Below are positions 31 to 6,981 of a stretch of 6,982 bases of DNA, piece after piece (within the stretch, counting starts at the first letter, position 1; each line of letters starts with the position of its first letter). The notes under the pieces were generated by a model. The model was not told where the DNA came from. It saw nothing but the letters and a program-made list of their open reading frames with translations, and ran no database searches. Origin of the DNA: Nitrospira sp. UBA6909 (lineage in GTDB: Bacteria > Nitrospirota > Nitrospiria > Nitrospirales > Nitrospiraceae); NCBI GenBank assembly GCA_002451055.1, contig DKBD01000163.1, positions 1,406 through 8,387 of the forward strand, in the 5' to 3' direction. Both the position numbers and the translations under genes were made by a program.

Positions 31-1412
31 TAACTTTGAGACCTATCCTGTGGCAGACGATATTCAAGACCGGTCGTAAGGGCGTGATACTCGCGGCCCT
101 CCTGTCCACCCTCACCCTGCCAAGCCGCGCGGCGGATATCAGCTACGTGTATGACGACCTGGGCCGTCTGCTGGCCGTGATAGATCCGGCGACCGACACC
201 GCGGTGTATGCCTACGACGCCGTCGGCAATCTCACGGGCATCACGCGGCACGCGTCTTCCACGTTGGCTATCTTTCAGTTCACGCCGTCCGCCGGGCCGG
301 TCGGGACAAACGTCACGCTCTACGGGACCGGCTTTAGTGCCACGCCAGCCTCGAACACCGTCAAGTTCAACGGCACGACGGCGACCGTGCTGACCGCGAC
401 GACCACGGTGCTCACGACGACAGTGCCCTCTGGGGCGACCACGGGGGCTATCAGCGTCACGGTGGCCGGCAATACGGTCACGAGCGCTACGAACTTTACC
501 GTGGGCTCACCCGGGGGCCCAACCATCTCTGGTTTTTCACCAACAGTTGGCACGGCTGGGACCGCTGTCACAATCAATGGCACCAACTACGACACGACCT
601 CGACCAAGAACAAGGTAACGTTCAGCCCCGCCTATGGAGTCGTGAACACGGCATCGGCGGCATCGATGGGCGTTACTGTACCAGTGGGCGCGCAATCGGG
701 AAAAATCGGCGTGACCACGGTGAATGGGAGCGTTCTCAGTGGCGACGACTTTTTTGTGACCCCCGGCGGGGTCAACCCCGCCGATGTTCAATTCACGGGA
801 CGCATCGTGGTAGGCGGCAGCACGGTCACCGCGACGATCAGCACGGCCAACAAAGTGGCATTGGTCGTCTTCGATGGGGTCGCGGGACAACGGGTCAATC
901 TTGGGATGACCGGAGTGACCATCGCCTCCAGTGCCATATCGATGTTCAAGCCGGACGGCATTGTGCTCGCCACCGCCAACTATGGGTCCGGAGGTGGGGC
1001 GTTGGACTCCCCGGTTCTGCCGATGACCGGCACCTATACGCTCACGGTGAATCCATCGGGGGCCAATACCGGCAATATGACGATCACGCTGTCATCCGAA
1101 GTGACGGGCTCCGTCACCATCAACGATCCGGCCACGCCCGTGACGCTTGGACGGGCCGGGCAGAATGGTCGCTATACATTCAGCGGCACCGCGAGTCAGC
1201 AAGTCACGGTGCGCATCACGAGCAATACGCTGGGGAACACCACGGTGAATCTCTACACCCCCAGCGGGAGCTATCAAACCGGCACGACGAACGCAGCGGC
1301 AAGTTTCAATCTGTCCACCGTGACACTTGGGAGTACGGGCACCTATACGATCACGGTCAACCCCACCACGACTGCCACCGGCAGTCTTAATCTACAGGTG
1401 ACCAACCCATGA
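27..1412 (+). CDS. Exported YD-repeat / IPT-TIG / PPC-like domain protein, companion of the RHS gene
   Basis: This 461-residue protein is predicted to be exported. Residues 1-36 look like a Sec signal: a basic N-region with R17 and K18, a hydrophobic run around GVILAALLSTLTLP, and a likely cleavage near SRA-AD (35-36). Residues 39-73 contain two YD-type units (YVYDDLGRLLAV, YAYDAVGNLTGI). Residues 81-160 and 164-245 are two IPT/TIG immunoglobulin-like domains, each with the FTPSAGPVGT or FSPTVGTAGT opening. Residues 252-356 and 361-461 are two related beta-rich domains resembling bacterial pre-peptidase C-terminal (PPC) domains, each ending in GTYTLTVNP or GTYTITVNP. No catalytic residues are recognised, so a structural or adhesive role outside the cytoplasm is inferred. 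The stop overlaps the RHS gene start as ATGA, implying translational coupling. No clear Shine-Dalgarno precedes ATG 27, and the frame is open to base 3, so a start outside the window is possible; the signal peptide favours ATG 27. Confidence 0.85.
   Translation: MITLRPILWQTIFKTGRKGVILAALLSTLTLPSRAADISYVYDDLGRLLAVIDPATDTAVYAYDAVGNLTGITRHASSTLAIFQFTPSAGPVGTNVTLYGTGFSATPASNTVKFNGTTATVLTATTTVLTTTVPSGATTGAISVTVAGNTVTSATNFTVGSPGGPTISGFSPTVGTAGTAVTINGTNYDTTSTKNKVTFSPAYGVVNTASAASMGVTVPVGAQSGKIGVTTVNGSVLSGDDFFVTPGGVNPADVQFTGRIVVGGSTVTATISTANKVALVVFDGVAGQRVNLGMTGVTIASSAISMFKPDGIVLATANYGSGGGALDSPVLPMTGTYTLTVNPSGANTGNMTITLSSEVTGSVTINDPATPVTLGRAGQNGRYTFSGTASQQVTVRITSNTLGNTTVNLYTPSGSYQTGTTNAAASFNLSTVTLGSTGTYTITVNPTTTATGSLNLQVTNP
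1396..1400 (+). promoter_or_regulatory. Ribosome binding site of the RHS gene
   Basis: AGGTG lies inside the 3' end of the preceding gene, eight bases before ATG 1409. Together with the ATGA stop/start overlap it supports the start chosen for the RHS protein and suggests reinitiation or coupled translation. Confidence 0.5.
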
Positions 1413-4400
1413 ATACACGACGACTGGTTCGGTATGCGGTAGTGCTCTGGTGTACCATCGAAGTGATGGCGGGGGCTCTGCATGTCTGGGCAGAAGAGGG
1501 GGCAGCCGTTAACAGCTCAAGTATTCCCAAAGGATTCATTTTGCCCTCGTGTGGGTCAGGAACCATAAATGTCAATTCCTTCGTAGGAGATCAAGTCCAA
1601 AGCTGGTCGGCCGGCTGCAGTTCCACCTACGATGCCACCGGGTTTTTCTTGCGGCCTCCTCATAATGCCACCACGACAATCCCTTCTGGCTGGGTTAGTA
1701 ATGGGGGAGTGATCCAAAATTGCAGCTCAAAAGGGGAGGATTATCCCACTTTTGGCTCGTTTTTCCTGGCCTATATCAAGAATTTAAGCGGTTCAGTTGT
1801 AGTGGATGTCAAATCTCCGGACCCGCTTCCTACATGGTGCACGTGGTCTTACCAAGAGGGGTACTTCCATAATGTCTATGACCAAGCCCTCCATCCAATA
1901 GATAATCCCAACCCGCCGGACTGGGCGCCGGATCCGCCGGCTCAGCAAGCCACTGATGGAGAGAAACAAACCGGTGGCGACCCAGTCGAACTCTCGACTG
2001 GGCTCTTTATCATGGAGAAGACCGATCTGGCCACTCCCGACCTCATACCCCTCATCCTCACGCGGACCTACCGACAGAACGATGCGGGGTCTCGCACCTT
2101 TGGCATCGGCTCGACCCATGCGTACGATCTATGGTTGGTGCGGGACGACTATTGCAGCGTGATACAGTTGATCCAACCGGACGGCGCTCGCGAGACCTAC
2201 ACCCGCATCAGCGGGACCGATTGTTTTACCGCCTCTTTGGTCAACCAGAACTCTCCGAGCGCTGCACTGCAATCAACACTCAACTGGGATCCCGGCCGGC
2301 AGCTCTGGCAGCTAAAGCGCAAGGATGGCACGATCTATCGTTTTTCCGGCATGCTCACCTATGCCCGGTATTTGTTGATGGAAATCGAAGACCGCAACGG
2401 CAACCGCACCGTATTGGTGCGTGATGCGTTGGGCCGGTTGACGAGGGTCATCAGTCCTTCGACCAAGTTTTTTCAATGGACGTATGATACGAGCAATCGC
2501 ATCACCCAAGTGTCGGACAATACCGGGCGCACCGTGACCTATACGTACGATGCCAGCGGTCGGCTCTGGAAAGTGACTGATCCGGCTGGCGGCATCACGG
2601 AGTATACATATGATGCGTCTCACCGGATGCTGACGATCAAGGATGCGAAGGGCATCGTCTTTCTGACCAATACCTACGATGCCAATGGGCGCGTGGACAC
2701 GCAGACGCAAGCCGACAGCACCACGTACCAGTTTGCCTACACGCTCGATGGAAGCGGGAAGGTGACCCAGACCGACGTCACCGACCCCCGGGGCTTCGTG
2801 CGGCGGCTGACGTTCAATAGCGGCGGCTATGCGCTTACCGACACCGCGGCCTACGGGCAGGCTGAAGCCCAGACGACGACCTACGAACGCCAAACGGGAA
2901 CCAACTTGATCCTGAGCATTACCGATGCGCTCAATCGCAAGACGGCCTATACCTATGACAGCAAAGGCAATGTGCTGACGGTAACGCGACTGCACGGAAC
3001 GGCCAATGCCGTTACGACGACATACACGTACGAGTCCACGCACAATCAACTGGCAACTGTTACCGACCCCCTCAACCACACGACGACGTTCACGTATGAC
3101 AGCAAGGGCAACCTGACGGGGATGACGAACGCGTTGAACAAGACCACCGCGATCACCGTCAACGATCAAGGGCAACCGCTGACCGTCACCGATCCGTTGA
3201 ACAATCAGACCACGCTGGTCTATGCGCAGGGTGATCTCGTGACCACGACTGACCCGCTCAGTCGAGTGTCTACGCGGTTCGTCGATGGTGTGGGGCGTCT
3301 GCTGGCTCTTACCAATCCCAATAAGAACCGAATCCAGTATGATGTGGATGTTTTGAATCAAGTGACGAAAGCCATCGATCCCATGAGCGGCGAAACCCAG
3401 TTCACGTACGATGCGAATGGGAATCTCTTGACCGTATCGGACGCCATGGCGCAGGTGACGACCTACACGTACAACAGCATGGATCGGACGGCGACTCGCA
3501 AGGATGCGTTGAACAACACCGAGACGTACACCTACGATAACAACGGCAATGTCGCCACAGTGACGGATCGCAAGAGCCAAGTGACCACATTGACGTACGA
3601 TGCCTTGAATCGCCGCACGAAGGCCAGCTATCACGACGGGACCTCGACGAATTATACCTACGATGCCGGCAACCGGATCACGCAGGTGCAAGAGAAAGAC
3701 GCGACGAACACGGTGACGGCCACGATCATACGGACCTATGACGGATTGGATCGGCTCACGCAGGAAGTGACGCCGCAGGGCACAGTGAGCTACACGTATG
3801 ACAATGCCAGCCGCCGCGCCAGTATGACTGTCGCTGGACAATCGGCGGTCAATTACACCTATGACAACGCGAACCGGCTCACGCAGATTCAACAAGGCAC
3901 TGATACCGTCACGATCGCCTACGATGATGCCGATCGCCGGACCAGCGCGACGTATCCCAACGGGAATAAGATCGAGTATGCCTACAATGCGGCCTCGGAA
4001 TTGACGAGTCTCACCTATAAGTCAGGGACCACCACGATTGGGGACCTGACTTACACGTATGACGCGGCGGGGAACCGCATCAAGACGGGCGGTTCCTTTG
4101 CCCGATCCAATTTGCCTCCCGCGTTGGCCACTGTGAGCTACAATGCCAACAATCAACAGACCACATTCGGCAGCAACACACTTACCTATGATCTGAACGG
4201 CAATCTGGCCACGGTGGATGATGGCAGCGACACGACGACGTACACCTGGAACGCCCGTAATCAACTCGCGGGGATCAGCACCACCGGCTTCGCCGCGACC
4301 TTTACCTACGACAGTTTCGGACGACGAACGGGCAAGACGATTCAGGGCACCACGACCAATTTTGTCTACGATGGGCTCAATCCGATCCAGGAGAAGAACG

Positions 4401-5137
4401 GCTCGACCGTCACGGCCAATCTGCTCACCGGGCTCGGTATCGATGAATTCTTCACGAGGACCGACGGAGCAGGGGCGAAGTCGCTCTTACACGATGGGCT
4501 CGGCTCGACGGTGGCCCTGGACGATGGGACCGGCTCATTGCCCACCCAGTACACCTATGAGCCCTTTGGCTACACTACTGAATCCGGCGTAACGAGCACG
4601 AACAGCTATAAGTACACGGGGCGTGAAGATGACGGAAGTGGGCCCTCCTACTACCGCGCACGGTACTACCAGCCACGGCTGCAGCGGTTTATCAGTGAGG
4701 ATCCGATTGGGTTTATGGGTGGGGATGTGAATCTGTATGGCTATGTGGGCAATAGCCCGATCCTGAGAACCGATCCAAATGGGCAGATTGTTCCCGCTAT
4801 TCTCCTTGGTTGTGCCCTGGGGGCCTCCAGCGGTTATTTAGGTGCCAAAAAACCCTTTCGAGTTCAAGGTGCCATAATCGGAGGGCTTATTGGATGCAGT
4901 TTAGGTCCTTTAATCAGCGTTCTTCCGGCAACGCCGGGGTCGGCATTCTTGAGTGCGTATCTTGGTGGTCTCGCGGGAGCAGCAACAGCTGGTGCTGGAG
5001 GAGGGAATATGCAAGCTGGTGCGGTGGGCGGCACTCTTGGTGGGGGAACCGGTGGGTTAGTTGGTGGTCAAATTGGAGCTATCGGCGGAGCCGTCATTTC
5101 CGGTGGTATAGGGTGGGTCTCAGGGAGTGGACTATAA
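1409..5137 (+). CDS. Sec-exported RHS/YD-repeat protein with variable C-terminal tip (putative polymorphic toxin)
   Basis: This is a 1242-residue RHS family protein. Residues 1-28 look like a Sec signal with basic NTRRLVR, a hydrophobic stretch and VWA-EE cleavage. Residues 40-180 match no family I recognise; they hold cysteines C48, C70, C105 and C144 and end in a proline-rich linker (about 164-180). Residues 189-245 resemble DUF6531, the usual entry domain, with GDPVELSTG followed by LTRTYRQ. From about 357 to 996 there are over 20 YD repeats of the form YTYDxxGRLxxV, which in known RHS/Tc structures build a hollow beta shell. Residues 1079-1125 are the conserved RHS core (YYRARYYQP, RFISEDPIGF, NLYGYVGNSP, TDPNG), which in characterised RHS proteins is the site of self-cleavage that frees the C-terminal toxin. 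Residues 1126-1242 form a nonconserved glycine-rich hydrophobic tip. No PAAR or VgrG domain is present and no type VI genes are seen nearby, so export by Sec is inferred. Start: AGGTG eight bases upstream, plus the signal peptide. The RHS identity is secure; toxicity is inferred. Confidence 0.93.
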   Translation: MNTRRLVRYAVVLWCTIEVMAGALHVWAEEGAAVNSSSIPKGFILPSCGSGTINVNSFVGDQVQSWSAGCSSTYDATGFFLRPPHNATTTIPSGWVSNGGVIQNCSSKGEDYPTFGSFFLAYIKNLSGSVVVDVKSPDPLPTWCTWSYQEGYFHNVYDQALHPIDNPNPPDWAPDPPAQQATDGEKQTGGDPVELSTGLFIMEKTDLATPDLIPLILTRTYRQNDAGSRTFGIGSTHAYDLWLVRDDYCSVIQLIQPDGARETYTRISGTDCFTASLVNQNSPSAALQSTLNWDPGRQLWQLKRKDGTIYRFSGMLTYARYLLMEIEDRNGNRTVLVRDALGRLTRVISPSTKFFQWTYDTSNRITQVSDNTGRTVTYTYDASGRLWKVTDPAGGITEYTYDASHRMLTIKDAKGIVFLTNTYDANGRVDTQTQADSTTYQFAYTLDGSGKVTQTDVTDPRGFVRRLTFNSGGYALTDTAAYGQAEAQTTTYERQTGTNLILSITDALNRKTAYTYDSKGNVLTVTRLHGTANAVTTTYTYESTHNQLATVTDPLNHTTTFTYDSKGNLTGMTNALNKTTAITVNDQGQPLTVTDPLNNQTTLVYAQGDLVTTTDPLSRVSTRFVDGVGRLLALTNPNKNRIQYDVDVLNQVTKAIDPMSGETQFTYDANGNLLTVSDAMAQVTTYTYNSMDRTATRKDALNNTETYTYDNNGNVATVTDRKSQVTTLTYDALNRRTKASYHDGTSTNYTYDAGNRITQVQEKDATNTVTATIIRTYDGLDRLTQEVTPQGTVSYTYDNASRRASMTVAGQSAVNYTYDNANRLTQIQQGTDTVTIAYDDADRRTSATYPNGNKIEYAYNAASELTSLTYKSGTTTIGDLTYTYDAAGNRIKTGGSFARSNLPPALATVSYNANNQQTTFGSNTLTYDLNGNLATVDDGSDTTTYTWNARNQLAGISTTGFAATFTYDSFGRRTGKTIQGTTTNFVYDGLNPIQEKNGSTVTANLLTGLGIDEFFTRTDGAGAKSLLHDGLGSTVALDDGTGSLPTQYTYEPFGYTTESGVTSTNSYKYTGREDDGSGPSYYRARYYQPRLQRFISEDPIGFMGGDVNLYGYVGNSPILRTDPNGQIVPAILLGCALGASSGYLGAKKPFRVQGAIIGGLIGCSLGPLISVLPATPGSAFLSAYLGGLAGAATAGAGGGNMQAGAVGGTLGGGTGGLVGGQIGAIGGAVISGGIGWVSGSGL
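2477..4396 (+). repeat. YD-repeat array of the RHS shell
   Basis: This part of the RHS gene encodes residues 357-996, a degenerate tandem array. Units recur every 20-21 residues in places and are irregular elsewhere. Clear examples are YTYDASGRLWKV (379-390), FTYDSKGNLTGM (561-572), FTYDANGNLLTV (665-676), YTYDAGNRITQV (749-760) and YTYDNANRLTQI (817-828). The DNA repeats as variants of ACSTAYGAY..GGCAAY. The array fits the beta-shell of RHS proteins. Its biased codon pattern also produces long open frames on the opposite strand that are not genes. Confidence 0.9.
4643..4783 (+). other. RHS core domain ending in DPNG (predicted self-cleavage region)
   Basis: Residues 1079-1125 of the RHS protein carry the family signature: YYRARYYQP, then RFISEDPIGF, a GG-containing loop, NLYGYVGNSP and TDPNG. 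In characterised RHS toxins the aspartates of the two DPxG-type motifs (here D1098 and D1122) belong to an intramolecular aspartyl protease that cuts just after this region. Both aspartates are present, so the core looks intact and cleavage near residue 1125 is a reasonable inference. Confidence 0.8.
4784..5134 (+). other. Variable C-terminal tip of the RHS protein: glycine-zipper-like hydrophobic domain
   Basis: These 117 residues (1126-1242) follow DPNG and have no resemblance to the YD repeats. They are rich in Gly, Ala, Ile and Leu with many small-xxx-small spacings, for example AIIGGLIG, YLGGLAGAATAG and GGQIGAIGGAVISGG. There are two similar segments, LLGCALG (1132-1138) and LIGCSLG (1160-1166), and one basic turn, AKKPFR. 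No nuclease, deaminase, ADP-ribosyltransferase or peptidase residues are recognised. Glycine-zipper segments are typical of peptides that pack in membranes, so a pore-forming or membrane-disrupting tip is inferred. The alternative is that this is the glycine-rich linker that often precedes RHS toxin domains and that the toxin itself has been lost. Confidence 0.5.
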
Positions 5138-5143
5138 CTGAGG

Positions 5144-5437
5144 ATGTTTAGATTATTCGATTTTTCAGCGCCTATAGATCGTACAACCGATCAGTTAGTC
5201 GTGGGAACCGTTCTCTTTTTGTTTCTCGCATGTCTCTGGGTCTATTTCATTTATTACCGCGACCAAGAAGCGCGGCGATTAGTGGACTTGGCTAAACTTT
5301 GGGGAAAACGAGTTGAAGATGACGCAAGAGAATTGCGGAGAACTAAAACGCGGATGGTTATCGGCTATTCAGTGTTGCTGGTGTTGAGCTTGTTGCTAGC
5401 AGCACGGTTCTGTGTTGAGCTCTTGCGTCGGCTCTAG
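5144..5437 (+). CDS. Small two-TM membrane protein, candidate immunity protein for the RHS tip
   Basis: I do not recognise this 97-residue protein as a named family. It has two strong hydrophobic segments, about residues 18-38 (LVVGTVLFLFLACLWVYFIYY region) and 71-91 (MVIGYSVLLVLSLLLAARF region). They are joined by a highly charged, probably helical loop (39-70) with many Arg and Lys, which by the positive-inside rule should face the cytoplasm. It begins six bases after the RHS stop and in the same reading frame (TAA CTG AGG ATG), so it is almost certainly co-expressed. Its place directly after the variable tip is where immunity genes of polymorphic toxins sit, and an inner-membrane immunity protein would suit a membrane-acting toxin; both points are inference. 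The start is slightly uncertain: GAGG (5140-5143) directly abuts ATG with no spacer, so translation may depend on reinitiation by ribosomes finishing the RHS gene. GC is lower than in the RHS core (26 of 60 bases in 5161-5220 against 36 of 60 in 3061-3120). Confidence 0.7.
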   Translation: MFRLFDFSAPIDRTTDQLVVGTVLFLFLACLWVYFIYYRDQEARRLVDLAKLWGKRVEDDARELRRTKTRMVIGYSVLLVLSLLLAARFCVELLRRL

Positions 5438-5709: not shown

Positions 5710-6027
5710 TTATGCGGCACGGTTGCGGTTGTGTTTGGCTTCGAGCGTGAGATCGAGCCGTCCGCCGCAGGCATCGACGATTTTCTGGAGCGTGCGGAGC
5801 TCGTACCGGTTGTACTCCGCGTTTTCATACCGGCTGATCGCCGAAGCGGTGGTGCCGATGCGCTTGGCCAATTGGGCTTGGGTGAGGCCGGCCTGTTGGC
5901 GCAACCGTGACAGTTGCTCCCCTATCGCCAATTTCTGAGATTCTGCTTCAAACCCCTCACGAAACTTTGGACTAGCAAGCTTTTTCTCCAGCCAACCTTT
6001 GCCCGCTCTCGTTTTCTTAGGCTTCAT
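5710..6027 (-). CDS. XRE-family HigA-type antitoxin
   Basis: This 105-residue protein is the likely antitoxin and autorepressor of the adjacent toxin. The basic N-terminal segment (MKPKKTRAGK) is followed by residues 11-34, a charged helical stretch that may contact the toxin. Residues 36-90 form a Cro/CI-type helix-turn-helix: LSRLRQQAGLTQAQLAKRIG, then the recognition-helix region TTASAISRYENAEY (59-72), then RTLQKIVDACGGRLDL. This pattern and length fit antitoxins partnered with Gp49-like toxins. The start ATG at 6027-6025 has GGGAG (6040-6036) eight bases upstream, inside the toxin gene, and the two genes overlap by 11 bases, so translation is coupled. It probably represses its own operon through the palindrome at 6437-6450. 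Confidence 0.88.
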   Translation of the reverse strand: MKPKKTRAGKGWLEKKLASPKFREGFEAESQKLAIGEQLSRLRQQAGLTQAQLAKRIGTTASAISRYENAEYNRYELRTLQKIVDACGGRLDLTLEAKHNRNRAA

Positions 6028-6418
6028 GGATCACTCTCCCTTCAAAGAGATGTTTGTAGGCCTCGGCCCGTTCGATTTCCCGTTTCGGCGTCTTGTCCCC
6101 AGCCTTCCGGAAACCATGCGTCAAGATCAGTCGTCGGCCGACGAAGAAGAAACACAAGATGCGATCGGCATCGGCCTTGAATTCGAAGAGCTGATCCGTT
6201 TCGGTCAAATGTTTGAATTTGCGCTCATTCCAGATCTTGCCTGTATCGCCCATGCGGGCGAATAGGGCCGCGAACTTTTGCTGCGCTGTTGCTGGAAGCT
6301 GTTCGAGCCAGTCTTCTGCAGGAGCCGTTCCGCTCGGAGTTACATAGAACTCGATTTGGAAGACCGCCCCGTCGTAAACAAGACGAGTCAGTGGCGGCTT
6401 GCTCGATGGCTGTCCCAT
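6017..6418 (-). CDS. Gp49-like / HigB-type toxin (RelE superfamily)
   Basis: This 133-residue protein matches the phage Gp49-like (DUF891) branch of RelE/HigB toxins, whose known members cut mRNA at the ribosome. Recognisable parts are FQIEFYVTPSGTAPAEDWL (20-38), a helix with ATAQQKFAALFARMGD (43-58), then KFKHL, LFEFKADADRILCFFF (77-92), RLILTHGFRKAGDKTP (96-111) and the final helix REIERAEAYKHLF. The basic and aromatic residues around RILCFFF and HGFRKAGDKTP are where this family places its RNA-handling surface. The toxin-first order is typical of HigBA-like modules. A start 24 bases further upstream (ATG 6442-6440) is possible, but it lies inside the operator palindrome and lacks a ribosome site. 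ATG 6418-6416 has GGAG five bases ahead and is preferred. The 3' end overlaps the antitoxin gene by 11 bases. The toxin appears intact. Confidence 0.87.
   Translation of the reverse strand: MGQPSSKPPLTRLVYDGAVFQIEFYVTPSGTAPAEDWLEQLPATAQQKFAALFARMGDTGKIWNERKFKHLTETDQLFEFKADADRILCFFFVGRRLILTHGFRKAGDKTPKREIERAEAYKHLFEGRVIHEA
6036..6040 (-). promoter_or_regulatory. Ribosome binding site of the antitoxin gene
   Basis: On the minus strand GGGAG lies eight bases before the antitoxin ATG and inside the 3' end of the toxin gene. It supports this start and suggests that the antitoxin can be translated well independently of the toxin's initiation site. Confidence 0.6.
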
Positions 6419-6423
6419 AGCAT

Positions 6424-6427
6424 CTCC
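6424..6427 (-). promoter_or_regulatory. Ribosome binding site deciding the toxin start
   Basis: On the minus strand GGAG is followed by five bases and ATG 6418-6416. This places the toxin start at 6418 rather than at the in-frame ATG at 6442. Confidence 0.6.
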
Positions 6428-6432
6428 GAATG

Positions 6433-6462
6433 GATATAGCATATATGCTACTATGACCGCAA
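6433..6462 (-). promoter_or_regulatory. Possible promoter of the toxin-antitoxin operon
   Basis: On the minus strand TTGCGG (6462-6457) resembles a -35 box. An AT-rich TATATC (6438-6433), 18 bases later, could act as the -10 box. The palindrome at 6437-6450 lies between and over these elements, which would allow repression. The matches to sigma-70 consensus are modest. Confidence 0.3.
6437..6450. promoter_or_regulatory. Perfect 14-bp palindrome, likely toxin-antitoxin operator
   Basis: TAGCATATATGCTA reads identically on both strands and lies 19-32 bases upstream of the toxin start. HigA-type antitoxins commonly bind such palindromes over their own promoter. Position and perfect symmetry make this the best operator candidate; binding is inferred. 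Confidence 0.6.
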
Positions 6463-6507: not shown

Positions 6508-6981
6508 TTAGAGGTGTTCTTGCTTGGGCGGGCGTTCGTAAATTCGGAATCGCTGCTTTATTGAATCCATGACCTGTTTCGCTTGTGCTTCATCAAGGCC
6601 TGCACCAAATCGACAGGTTTTTGGCACCATCTGTTTCAGCGCCGGGGGACCGAAGCGCATTGGATTGCGGTGGGCTATCATGGTAGGGTATCGGCTGCGT
6701 GAGATTGCCGAGCATCTCGGTGTCGATAAGGTTACACCGGCAGGGATTCCTGGTCGGCAACCGTTTCCGACAAAAGACCGGTCCGTTTCCGGGCTCGAAT
6801 AGCCTTTGCTGTAATCAGTGCTCATGAAGCGGCATCCGTTGAAGCCTCCAAGTCCGGGGATGATTTCCCGCGAAAGAAGTTCGAATTGACGGTTCAAAAT
6901 GAACACCACGCCGGCGGCCGAGGACCGGTTTTCACGTTTCGTAGCGGTGCCGCCGACGATGACGATATGCTCGTCGTCCAT
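6508..6981 (-). CDS. Hypothetical protein, possibly 5'-truncated by the window edge
   Basis: This frame of 157 codons runs from ATG 6981-6979 to TAA 6510-6508. Only one base lies beyond the ATG, so it may be internal to a longer gene. I do not recognise the family. The first 60 residues (IVIVGGTAT, GVVFILNRQFELL, EIIPGLGGFNG) alternate in the manner of beta strands, and the last 32 (GLDEAQAKQVMDSIKQRF) look helical. The middle (about 65-110) is rich in Ser, Arg, Pro and Cys and less protein-like. Its opposite strand reads GYRLREIAEHLGV, a helix-turn-helix-like peptide. Either this is one real gene with a coincidental antisense reading, or it is a gene interrupted by a mobile-element remnant. 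It shares the strand of the downstream toxin-antitoxin operon, 89 bases away. Confidence 0.35.
   Translation of the reverse strand: MDDEHIVIVGGTATKRENRSSAAGVVFILNRQFELLSREIIPGLGGFNGCRFMSTDYSKGYSSPETDRSFVGNGCRPGIPAGVTLSTPRCSAISRSRYPTMIAHRNPMRFGPPALKQMVPKTCRFGAGLDEAQAKQVMDSIKQRFRIYERPPKQEHL

Follow-up and report, generated by a model that had tools for sequence, protein, structure and literature searches.

As described for the H1 type VI secretion system (H1-T6SS) of Pseudomonas aeruginosa, Tse5 is an Rhs protein whose C-terminus makes ion-selective membrane pores, and Tsi5 has two predicted transmembrane (TM) regions (PMC9637101, PMC10684867). Here, we analyzed a window from Nitrospira sp. UBA6909 (the whole stretch of DNA examined, 6,982 nucleotides), which lies within contig C149 of an assembly of 3.07 Mb in 275 contigs (90.7% complete). 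It encodes an RHS protein of 1242 residues that ends in a glycine-zipper tip, followed directly by a 97-residue protein with two predicted TM segments. Judging from the sequences, the RHS C-terminus is likely an antibacterial membrane toxin and the adjacent protein its immunity protein. The two make up a probable RHS membrane-toxin/immunity pair of two undescribed families, best read as Tse5/Tsi5-like and likely T6SS-independent.

The window pair resembles Tse5/Tsi5 in its RHS shell, its DPxG...DPxG boundary, a C-terminus predicted here to act on membranes, and a two-TM candidate immunity protein. Tse5-CT and Tsi5 were likened to the pair by description and not by sequence. When the window RHS protein was compared with solved Tse5 (8cp6, E 1.9e-30), the best stretch lay in the shell (residues 375–759), not in the tip. 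Unlike Tse5, which has a PAAR-like N-terminus, the window protein carries a likely Sec signal, its DPxG motifs are X20 apart as against X19, and its tip family has two invariant Cys residues. A T6SS Rhs effector would be expected to have a PAAR-like N-terminus; the Pfam search with the window RHS protein returned no PAAR model. VipB (PF05943) was not found in the assembly, in a search of this one family in this one genome that did find the E. coli control. Delivery by a T6SS is not supported for this assembly, although at its level of completeness the absence of a T6SS is not proven.

Other described systems share features with the pair. EsxX/ExiCD and TelE, LXG proteins of the type VII secretion system (T7SS), have a C-terminal glycine-zipper toxin that depolarizes membranes, together with membrane immunity proteins and orphan immunity genes, as described in PMC12744356; compared by description only, they differ in their LXG/T7SS carrier, which is without an RHS shell. 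In Caulobacter, CdzC and CdzD are described as killing proteins of the glycine-zipper type, against which the small membrane protein CdzI confers immunity (PMC5380434), but they are two bacteriocins (86 and 84 residues) with type I export, and CdzI has three predicted TM domains. The ionophoric CdiA-CT toxins of contact-dependent inhibition (CDI) are described with an entry domain followed by an ionophore domain, a predicted entry-helix disulfide, and a putative glycine zipper (PMC11630599). There, the carrier is CdiA, and entry receptors are known, whereas none is known for the window tip.

The glycine-zipper tip and its 97-residue partner

The RHS open reading frame (ORF; 1409–5137, + strand) encodes DUF6531, RHS repeats, Rhs_assc_core, and then the variable tip, as assigned with Pfam and NCBIfam, and stops with TAA at 5135–5137. 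The Rhs_assc_core (TIGR03696) match ends at residue 1126, and alignments with two solved Rhs proteins, 8h8a and 8h8b, extend no further than residue 1125, the G of DPNG (residues 1122–1125). The tip comprises the following 117 residues (1126–1242; 4784–5134). Six bases (5138–5143) separate the RHS stop codon from the ATG of the partner gene (5144–5437, +). The preliminary description, made from the letters alone, had named this reading frame, boundary, tip, gap, and partner, and the ORF and domain coordinates confirmed all of them.

Tip residues are numbered from the D of DPNG (D = 1). Including DPNG (121 residues), the tip contains 29.8% Gly, and its only charged residues are D1, K26, K27, and R30. 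The claimed richness in small-xxx-small spacings was borne out: 17 GxxxG spacings were counted against 10.2 after composition-preserving shuffling (10,000 shuffles, P = 0.003), and among Gly spacings of 2 to 8, only 4 and 8 were enriched. The tip model consists of helices 6–24, 30–50, 55–75, 80–97, and 100–116 (mean predicted local distance difference test score (pLDDT) 65.7, predicted template modelling score (pTM) 0.48). In all 10 aligned tips, G13-C14, G17, G21, G24, K27, G33, G37, G41-C42, P52, G65, G69, A73, A75, G77, G83, G87, G91, and A103 are invariant, and the invariant small residues are spaced by four across the first four predicted helices.

The tip is likely bipartite, as its sequence suggests. 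The head (4784–4921, +) has two predicted zipper helices (6–24 and 30–50) around a KKP turn and the invariant Cys14 (codon 4811–4813, +) and Cys42 (codon 4895–4897, +). These residues lie 13 and 15 positions away from K27 in the turn. These distances make a cross-hairpin disulfide that clamps the head hairpin plausible. The head would be a shared entry or pre-toxin module. The tail (4934–5134, +), with the family-specific glycine-zipper helices 55–75, 80–97, and 100–116, is likelier to be the toxin and is our candidate for the membrane-acting part proper.

For the partner, hydropathy windows over 1.2 begin at residues 13–23 and 67–79, and the AlphaFold2 model (mean pLDDT 88.5) shows helices 15–37, 39–52, and 60–96, in agreement with the two membrane segments proposed earlier. 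The loop between them had been called basic. It is indeed rich in Arg and Lys, but also in Asp and Glu, so the term is only partly right. Conserved residues are R39, E42, A43, R45, K51, and W53-G54-K55 in the loop and ELLRR at the C-terminus. A protein database search, which carried no genomic context, returned 21 partner proteins, the window's own among them, and 4 proteins with the tip, one of them the window's own. In an alignment of 20 A-type proteins (56–77% identical to the window's), 20 of the 97 columns are invariant, nine in the charged loop (39–64) and four within R88–R96. The search of the genome contig collection gave one locus, L053, on a contig of G015, a genome of the same genus that holds the nearest genome relative of the 97-residue protein.

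Neither window protein matched a Pfam or NCBIfam model over its cut-off, and PADLOC yielded nothing at E ≤ 0.01. The score against Gly-zipper_Omp (PF13488) was 16.3 bits (gathering cut-off 25). The partner scored 17.4 bits against UPF0114 (PF03350, cut-off 23.1), which one of the 20 A-type members matched at E ≤ 0.01, and 13.4 bits against DUF2627 (PF11118, cut-off 22.4). Five of the 20 members matched DUF2627 at E ≤ 0.01, and two metagenomic relatives, P0017 (23.4) and P0018 (22.5), came just over the cut-off. These two matches cover only residues 7–43, the TM1 part, and DUF2627 names no function. The claim that neither protein belongs to a described family held for the window sequences, and not fully for the relatives of the partner. 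Imm17 is described with two TM helices and with WxW and R between them (PMC3482391, Zhang 2012); the window partner has no WxW, and no Imm family was among its Pfam matches.

Against PDB sequences, the tip profile retrieved only CrcB (E 0.09), and the best match of the partner profile was RPB_PLP3_R6 (E 0.006). Foldseek gave a best E of 2.5 for the tip model; for the partner model, the best match was the V-ATPase subunit f (E 1.1), a generic helical hairpin. Both fold searches were rejected as uninformative. With regard to a mobile-element origin, a tblastn search of 72,556 plasmid records with the partner gave no match (phage records were not searched), and none of 26 pattern matches in viral contigs was a partner relative.

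Co-occurrence and co-variation of tip and partner

We searched 79 genomes of the genus with a seven-row tip profile. The 10 rows obtained, two of which were pieces of one tip, correspond to nine tip loci in seven genomes, the window included, and all nine have a two-TM gene directly 3′. The partner is the 97-residue A-type in the window, G016, and G015:C33, and a B-type of ~91 residues in G023, G040, G015:C99 (twice), and G002:C111. In G022, an A-like head is fused to a domain resembling formylglycine-generating enzyme (FGE); this form is denoted A′. From the partner side, a phylum-wide search with the A profile gave matches in 7 of 395 genomes. Only one of these, G342, lies outside the genus, and there a tip of this kind is found directly 5′. 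Taken together, 10 of 10 tip loci (nine in Nitrospira, one in another family) adjoin a two-TM partner gene.

As a control, we examined 65 distinct RHS tips. A partner-profile match lay within 600 nt downstream of 9/9 zipper tips and of 0/56 others, 50 of which had at least 400 nt of downstream DNA. The tips were extracted by profile (a regular expression had given 31) from fetched loci, many of them matched by the queries, and do not form a random sample. Across the genus, Rhs_assc_core was present in 45 of the 79 genomes with ~128 core ends over the cut-off (hand count, 135 rows), and the zipper tip follows eight of them (hand count). At G015:C33, the tip is frame-broken, and at G002:C111 it is partial; the partner ORF is open at both loci, and an assembly error is possible. 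Overall, the locus has the make-up of an RHS polymorphic toxin, with conserved RHS repeats and Rhs_assc_core, a variable tip, and a tip-specific gene directly 3′.

The co-variation of tip and partner, suggested earlier as a check across homologous loci, was found. In the eight loci where the tip is whole, its identities and those of the partner are correlated at r = 0.92 (Mantel P 1e-4), as compared with r = 0.67 for core and partner. With rounded identities, the partial correlation is 0.86 for tip and partner given the core and −0.13 for core and partner given the tip. The downstream gene is inherited with the tip, not with the shell. The window core is nearest to those of G023 and G040 (78 and 76%, against 58% to G016), while its tip and partner are nearest to those of G016 (54 and 56%). 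As the core and the tip-plus-partner unit have different nearest relatives, tip and partner moved together, which is the mark of a swapped cassette. The zipper tip also sits on shells of different size (1242 residues in the window, a 2432-residue ORF in G016). G015:C99 has a tandem of zipper cassettes, of which the first is cut off by the contig end and the second lies on a 398-residue RHS ORF.

Shared heads, tip-less relatives, and rival explanations

Several results weigh against the toxin–immunity reading. The tip model is of only medium confidence, and its Foldseek search was uninformative. The correlation covers only eight loci, two of them near-identical (tip 98%), and the partial r falls to 0.81 without one near-duplicate and to 0.71 with six loci. 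Part of the tip may also serve delivery only. The head pattern C-x2,3-G...[RK]K...C-x1-3-G after DPxG occurs in 8 of the 9 zipper tips of the extracted set (that of G342 retains both Cys residues, but not the final G), and 5 of the 56 other tips have it as well (shuffled mean 0.05, maximum 2 in 1000). The pattern was written post hoc, after the sequences had been seen, and three of the five non-zipper carriers (t25–t27) resemble one lineage. An hhalign comparison of the two groups gave a probability of 67 (P 5e-5). The head profile, on the other hand, finds only one other tip, t13, and this weakly (E 0.0022, none else below 0.1), which makes the head/tail split uncertain. Within the zipper family, partner identity tracks head (0.87) and tail (0.90) about equally; thus, the split rests on the non-zipper tips.

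The five non-zipper carriers have differing tails, and for four of them (L020, L021, L022, and L028), the products of the downstream genes appear soluble on visual inspection. The cassette directly upstream of the zipper cassette at G015:C33 is among the five. This locus (L053) lies at a contig start and holds two consecutive RHS cassettes (3–1130 and 1896–3009); the first tip has a two-Cys head as in the zipper tips and another tail, and the second is the broken zipper tip with its open partner ORF. The preliminary description had counted an inert linker, conserved in RHS proteins that end in other toxins, among the outcomes that would overturn it. This is partly the case, since the two-Cys pattern of the first ~46 residues also starts unrelated RHS tips. 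The preliminary description was right on the pair and too simple on the tip.

The partner family is wider than the tip–partner pair. The A and B types resemble each other only weakly (hhalign probability 23), G051 matches both profiles (A 3e-5, B 3e-9, against fetched ORFs), and both families are patchy, each profile matching 9 of the 79 genus genomes. FGE-fused A′ genes occur in six genus genomes, and all except that of G022 stand without a tip (G002, G005, G012, G055, and G058). In G002, G012, and G058, the gene after the A′ gene is of the B type, and G005 and G055 have no B-type match; the A′ reading frames of G002 and G012 are interrupted. Of B-type loci, there are 13 in 15 table rows (G012 and G279 have two rows each): five behind a tip, three behind an A′ gene, four without an RHS gene (G051, G058:C178, G279, and G019:C424), and one, G019:C128, that is not judgeable with only 126 bases of upstream contig. 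Thus, eight of 13, the last included, are not behind a tip. These A′ and B relatives partly realize the second outcome that the preliminary description had named against itself, a small protein that occurs without the tip; in the genus, the free-standing 97-residue form is behind the tip in 3/3 cases. Orphan relatives count against a strict pair, though orphans are known for immunity genes, as described for ExiCD (PMC12744356).

The A′ partner of G022, directly behind its tip, matches PF03781 (FGE-like; E 4e-67, 227 bits against a cut-off of 23.3). Catalytic FGE carries cysteines in the stretch after RGG[GA]W; no Cys was found in the ~20 residues after this motif in four uninterrupted FGE-like domains. 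FGE-like T6SS immunity proteins were reportedly found by Lopez in 2021. FGE-fold proteins are described as T6SS immunity proteins in PMC13340143, which favors an immunity role; the G022 partner likewise has an FGE-like domain, but fused behind a two-TM head and beside a different kind of RHS protein. Two-TM heads fused to FGE-like domains, with no RHS neighbor, were observed at L073 (3911–5248), L074 (3195–4601), L075 (6236–7372, frame interrupted), and L077 (1241–2575). A B-type two-TM gene lies directly 3′ in L075 and L077, resembling an immunity island. About 1.3 kb from the fusion gene in L073 (G005), a small likely lipoprotein with a glycine-zipper stretch is encoded at 6576–7010.

With these results in hand, we considered explanations other than a toxin and its immunity protein. 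The zipper tip could be an entry or anchoring domain of an adhesin or surface RHS protein, with the two-TM protein as a membrane anchor or export partner. The head pattern common to other tips, the TIG-domain gene that precedes the RHS gene, and the partner relatives without a tip would fit this explanation, as would Tde1, whose glycine zipper is described as serving translocation and not killing (PMC10240207). The precedent of Tde1 also bears against a toxic tip. Nevertheless, the window protein ends with the zipper, which leaves no cargo to deliver, and partner ORFs stay open beside the broken or partial tips at G015:C33 and G002:C111. The co-variation of tip and partner is independent of the shell, and the second cassette of the G015:C99 tandem, a short RHS ORF that has a tip and a partner to itself, suits displaced toxin modules better than adhesins. 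We regard a role in entry or anchoring as unlikely.

A second explanation accepts tip and partner as a unit, but takes the partner family to be mainly a small membrane regulator or envelope protein, of which some copies were recruited beside RHS tips. The five tip-less FGE-fused relatives and the four B-type genes without an RHS gene speak for it. It is weakened by the orphan immunity proteins described in Serratia (PMC10539506) as well as by ExiCD, by the immunity-island-like order of three of the five FGE-fused orphans, which are directly followed by a B-type gene, and by the patchiness of the families; we consider it still less probable than an entry or anchoring role. Finally, the tip might be no more than a degenerate, functionless remnant of low complexity, next to an ORF that is there by chance. 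The tip is Gly/Ala-rich and without a family match over the cut-off, but invariant Gly, Cys, Lys, and Pro residues in 10/10 tips, a Gly periodicity of four, and the invariant columns of the partner alignment make this very improbable. The toxin–immunity pairing claimed in the preliminary description is strengthened by the complete co-occurrence, the co-variation beyond the core, and the empty control, and qualified by the orphan relatives and the shared head.

Proposed mechanism, neighboring genes, and significance

In the mechanism that we propose for a toxin and its immunity protein, the RHS protein would be exported through Sec (the search of this assembly gave no gene for a T6SS sheath). 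It would then be displayed on the cell surface, perhaps together with the product of the preceding TIG-domain gene. The likely signal peptide (residues 1–28; 1409–1492, +) was assigned by eye and hydropathy, not with a dedicated predictor. The aspartyl-protease-like motif DPIG-X20-DPNG (D1098 and D1122; 4700–4783, +) marks the core/tip boundary and would release the tip by cleavage within the RHS shell. Both Asp residues are conserved in 8/8 aligned loci. A DPxG aspartyl motif with DPxG-X18/19-DPxG spacing is described for Rhs proteins in PMC10684867; the spacing in the window is one or two residues longer than given there. In the target periplasm, the head hairpin, likely clamped by a Cys14–Cys42 disulfide, would serve for entry or insertion, and the zipper helices of the tail would come together in the inner membrane as an oligomer that leaks ions. 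The producer would be protected by the two-TM partner, which, with its charged loop, would bind these helices in the producer's inner membrane and keep them from assembling. We infer Sec export, DPIG/DPNG cleavage, membrane insertion, depolarization, and blocking by the partner; the pair would work by analogy with Tse5/Tsi5, its nearest working parallel.

More tentatively, and with some doubt, we suggest that the pair could belong to an undescribed class of two-module RHS membrane toxins in Nitrospira and in a relative from another family of its class. Such a class would combine a disulfide-clamped glycine-zipper hairpin as a general entry head swapped among RHS tips, a pore-forming zipper tail, and T6SS-independent delivery. 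Its immunity proteins would occur as the bare two-TM form or with a catalytically dead FGE-like domain, which would link membrane and FGE-like immunity in one lineage.

The RHS gene is preceded by a gene for a 461-residue protein (27–1412, +) with one RHS repeat and two TIG domains. As its stop codon overlaps the RHS start (ATGA), the two genes likely form one operon. This protein could assist Sec-type RHS toxins as a partner in secretion or at the surface. Genes that start like it were found 3′ of the pair in G342 (L071:2564–3613) and G016 (L078:1–8285). Beside the RHS cassette, on the − strand (5710–6442), a Gp49-like gene (6017–6442, PF05973) overlaps a helix-turn-helix gene (5710–6027); these are likely a toxin–antitoxin pair of ordinary type. 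Elsewhere in the genus, L041 (G015:C44) and L043 (G023) carry another RHS tip type (GPYAAALAGGLWPKSWAPATSGRGP in L041), and the next protein (129–138 residues) is hydrophobic in one segment at its N-terminus and otherwise soluble. This looks like a second undescribed tip–partner pair.

Nitrospira are key nitrite oxidizers in soil, water, and wastewater. To our knowledge, how they fight their neighbors has been little studied, and no such pair was among the matches listed in our search of the open-licence literature on Nitrospira and RHS, polymorphic toxins, or interbacterial competition. If our reading is true, it adds one toxin family and one immunity family and suggests RHS membrane toxins that act without a T6SS. 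The A, A′, and B types would then offer a natural set of cognate and non-cognate pairs in which to examine the blocking of a glycine zipper by a small two-TM protein. Through the two-Cys head that these tips have in common with others, the entry of Sec-type RHS toxins into Gram-negative cells becomes a testable question.

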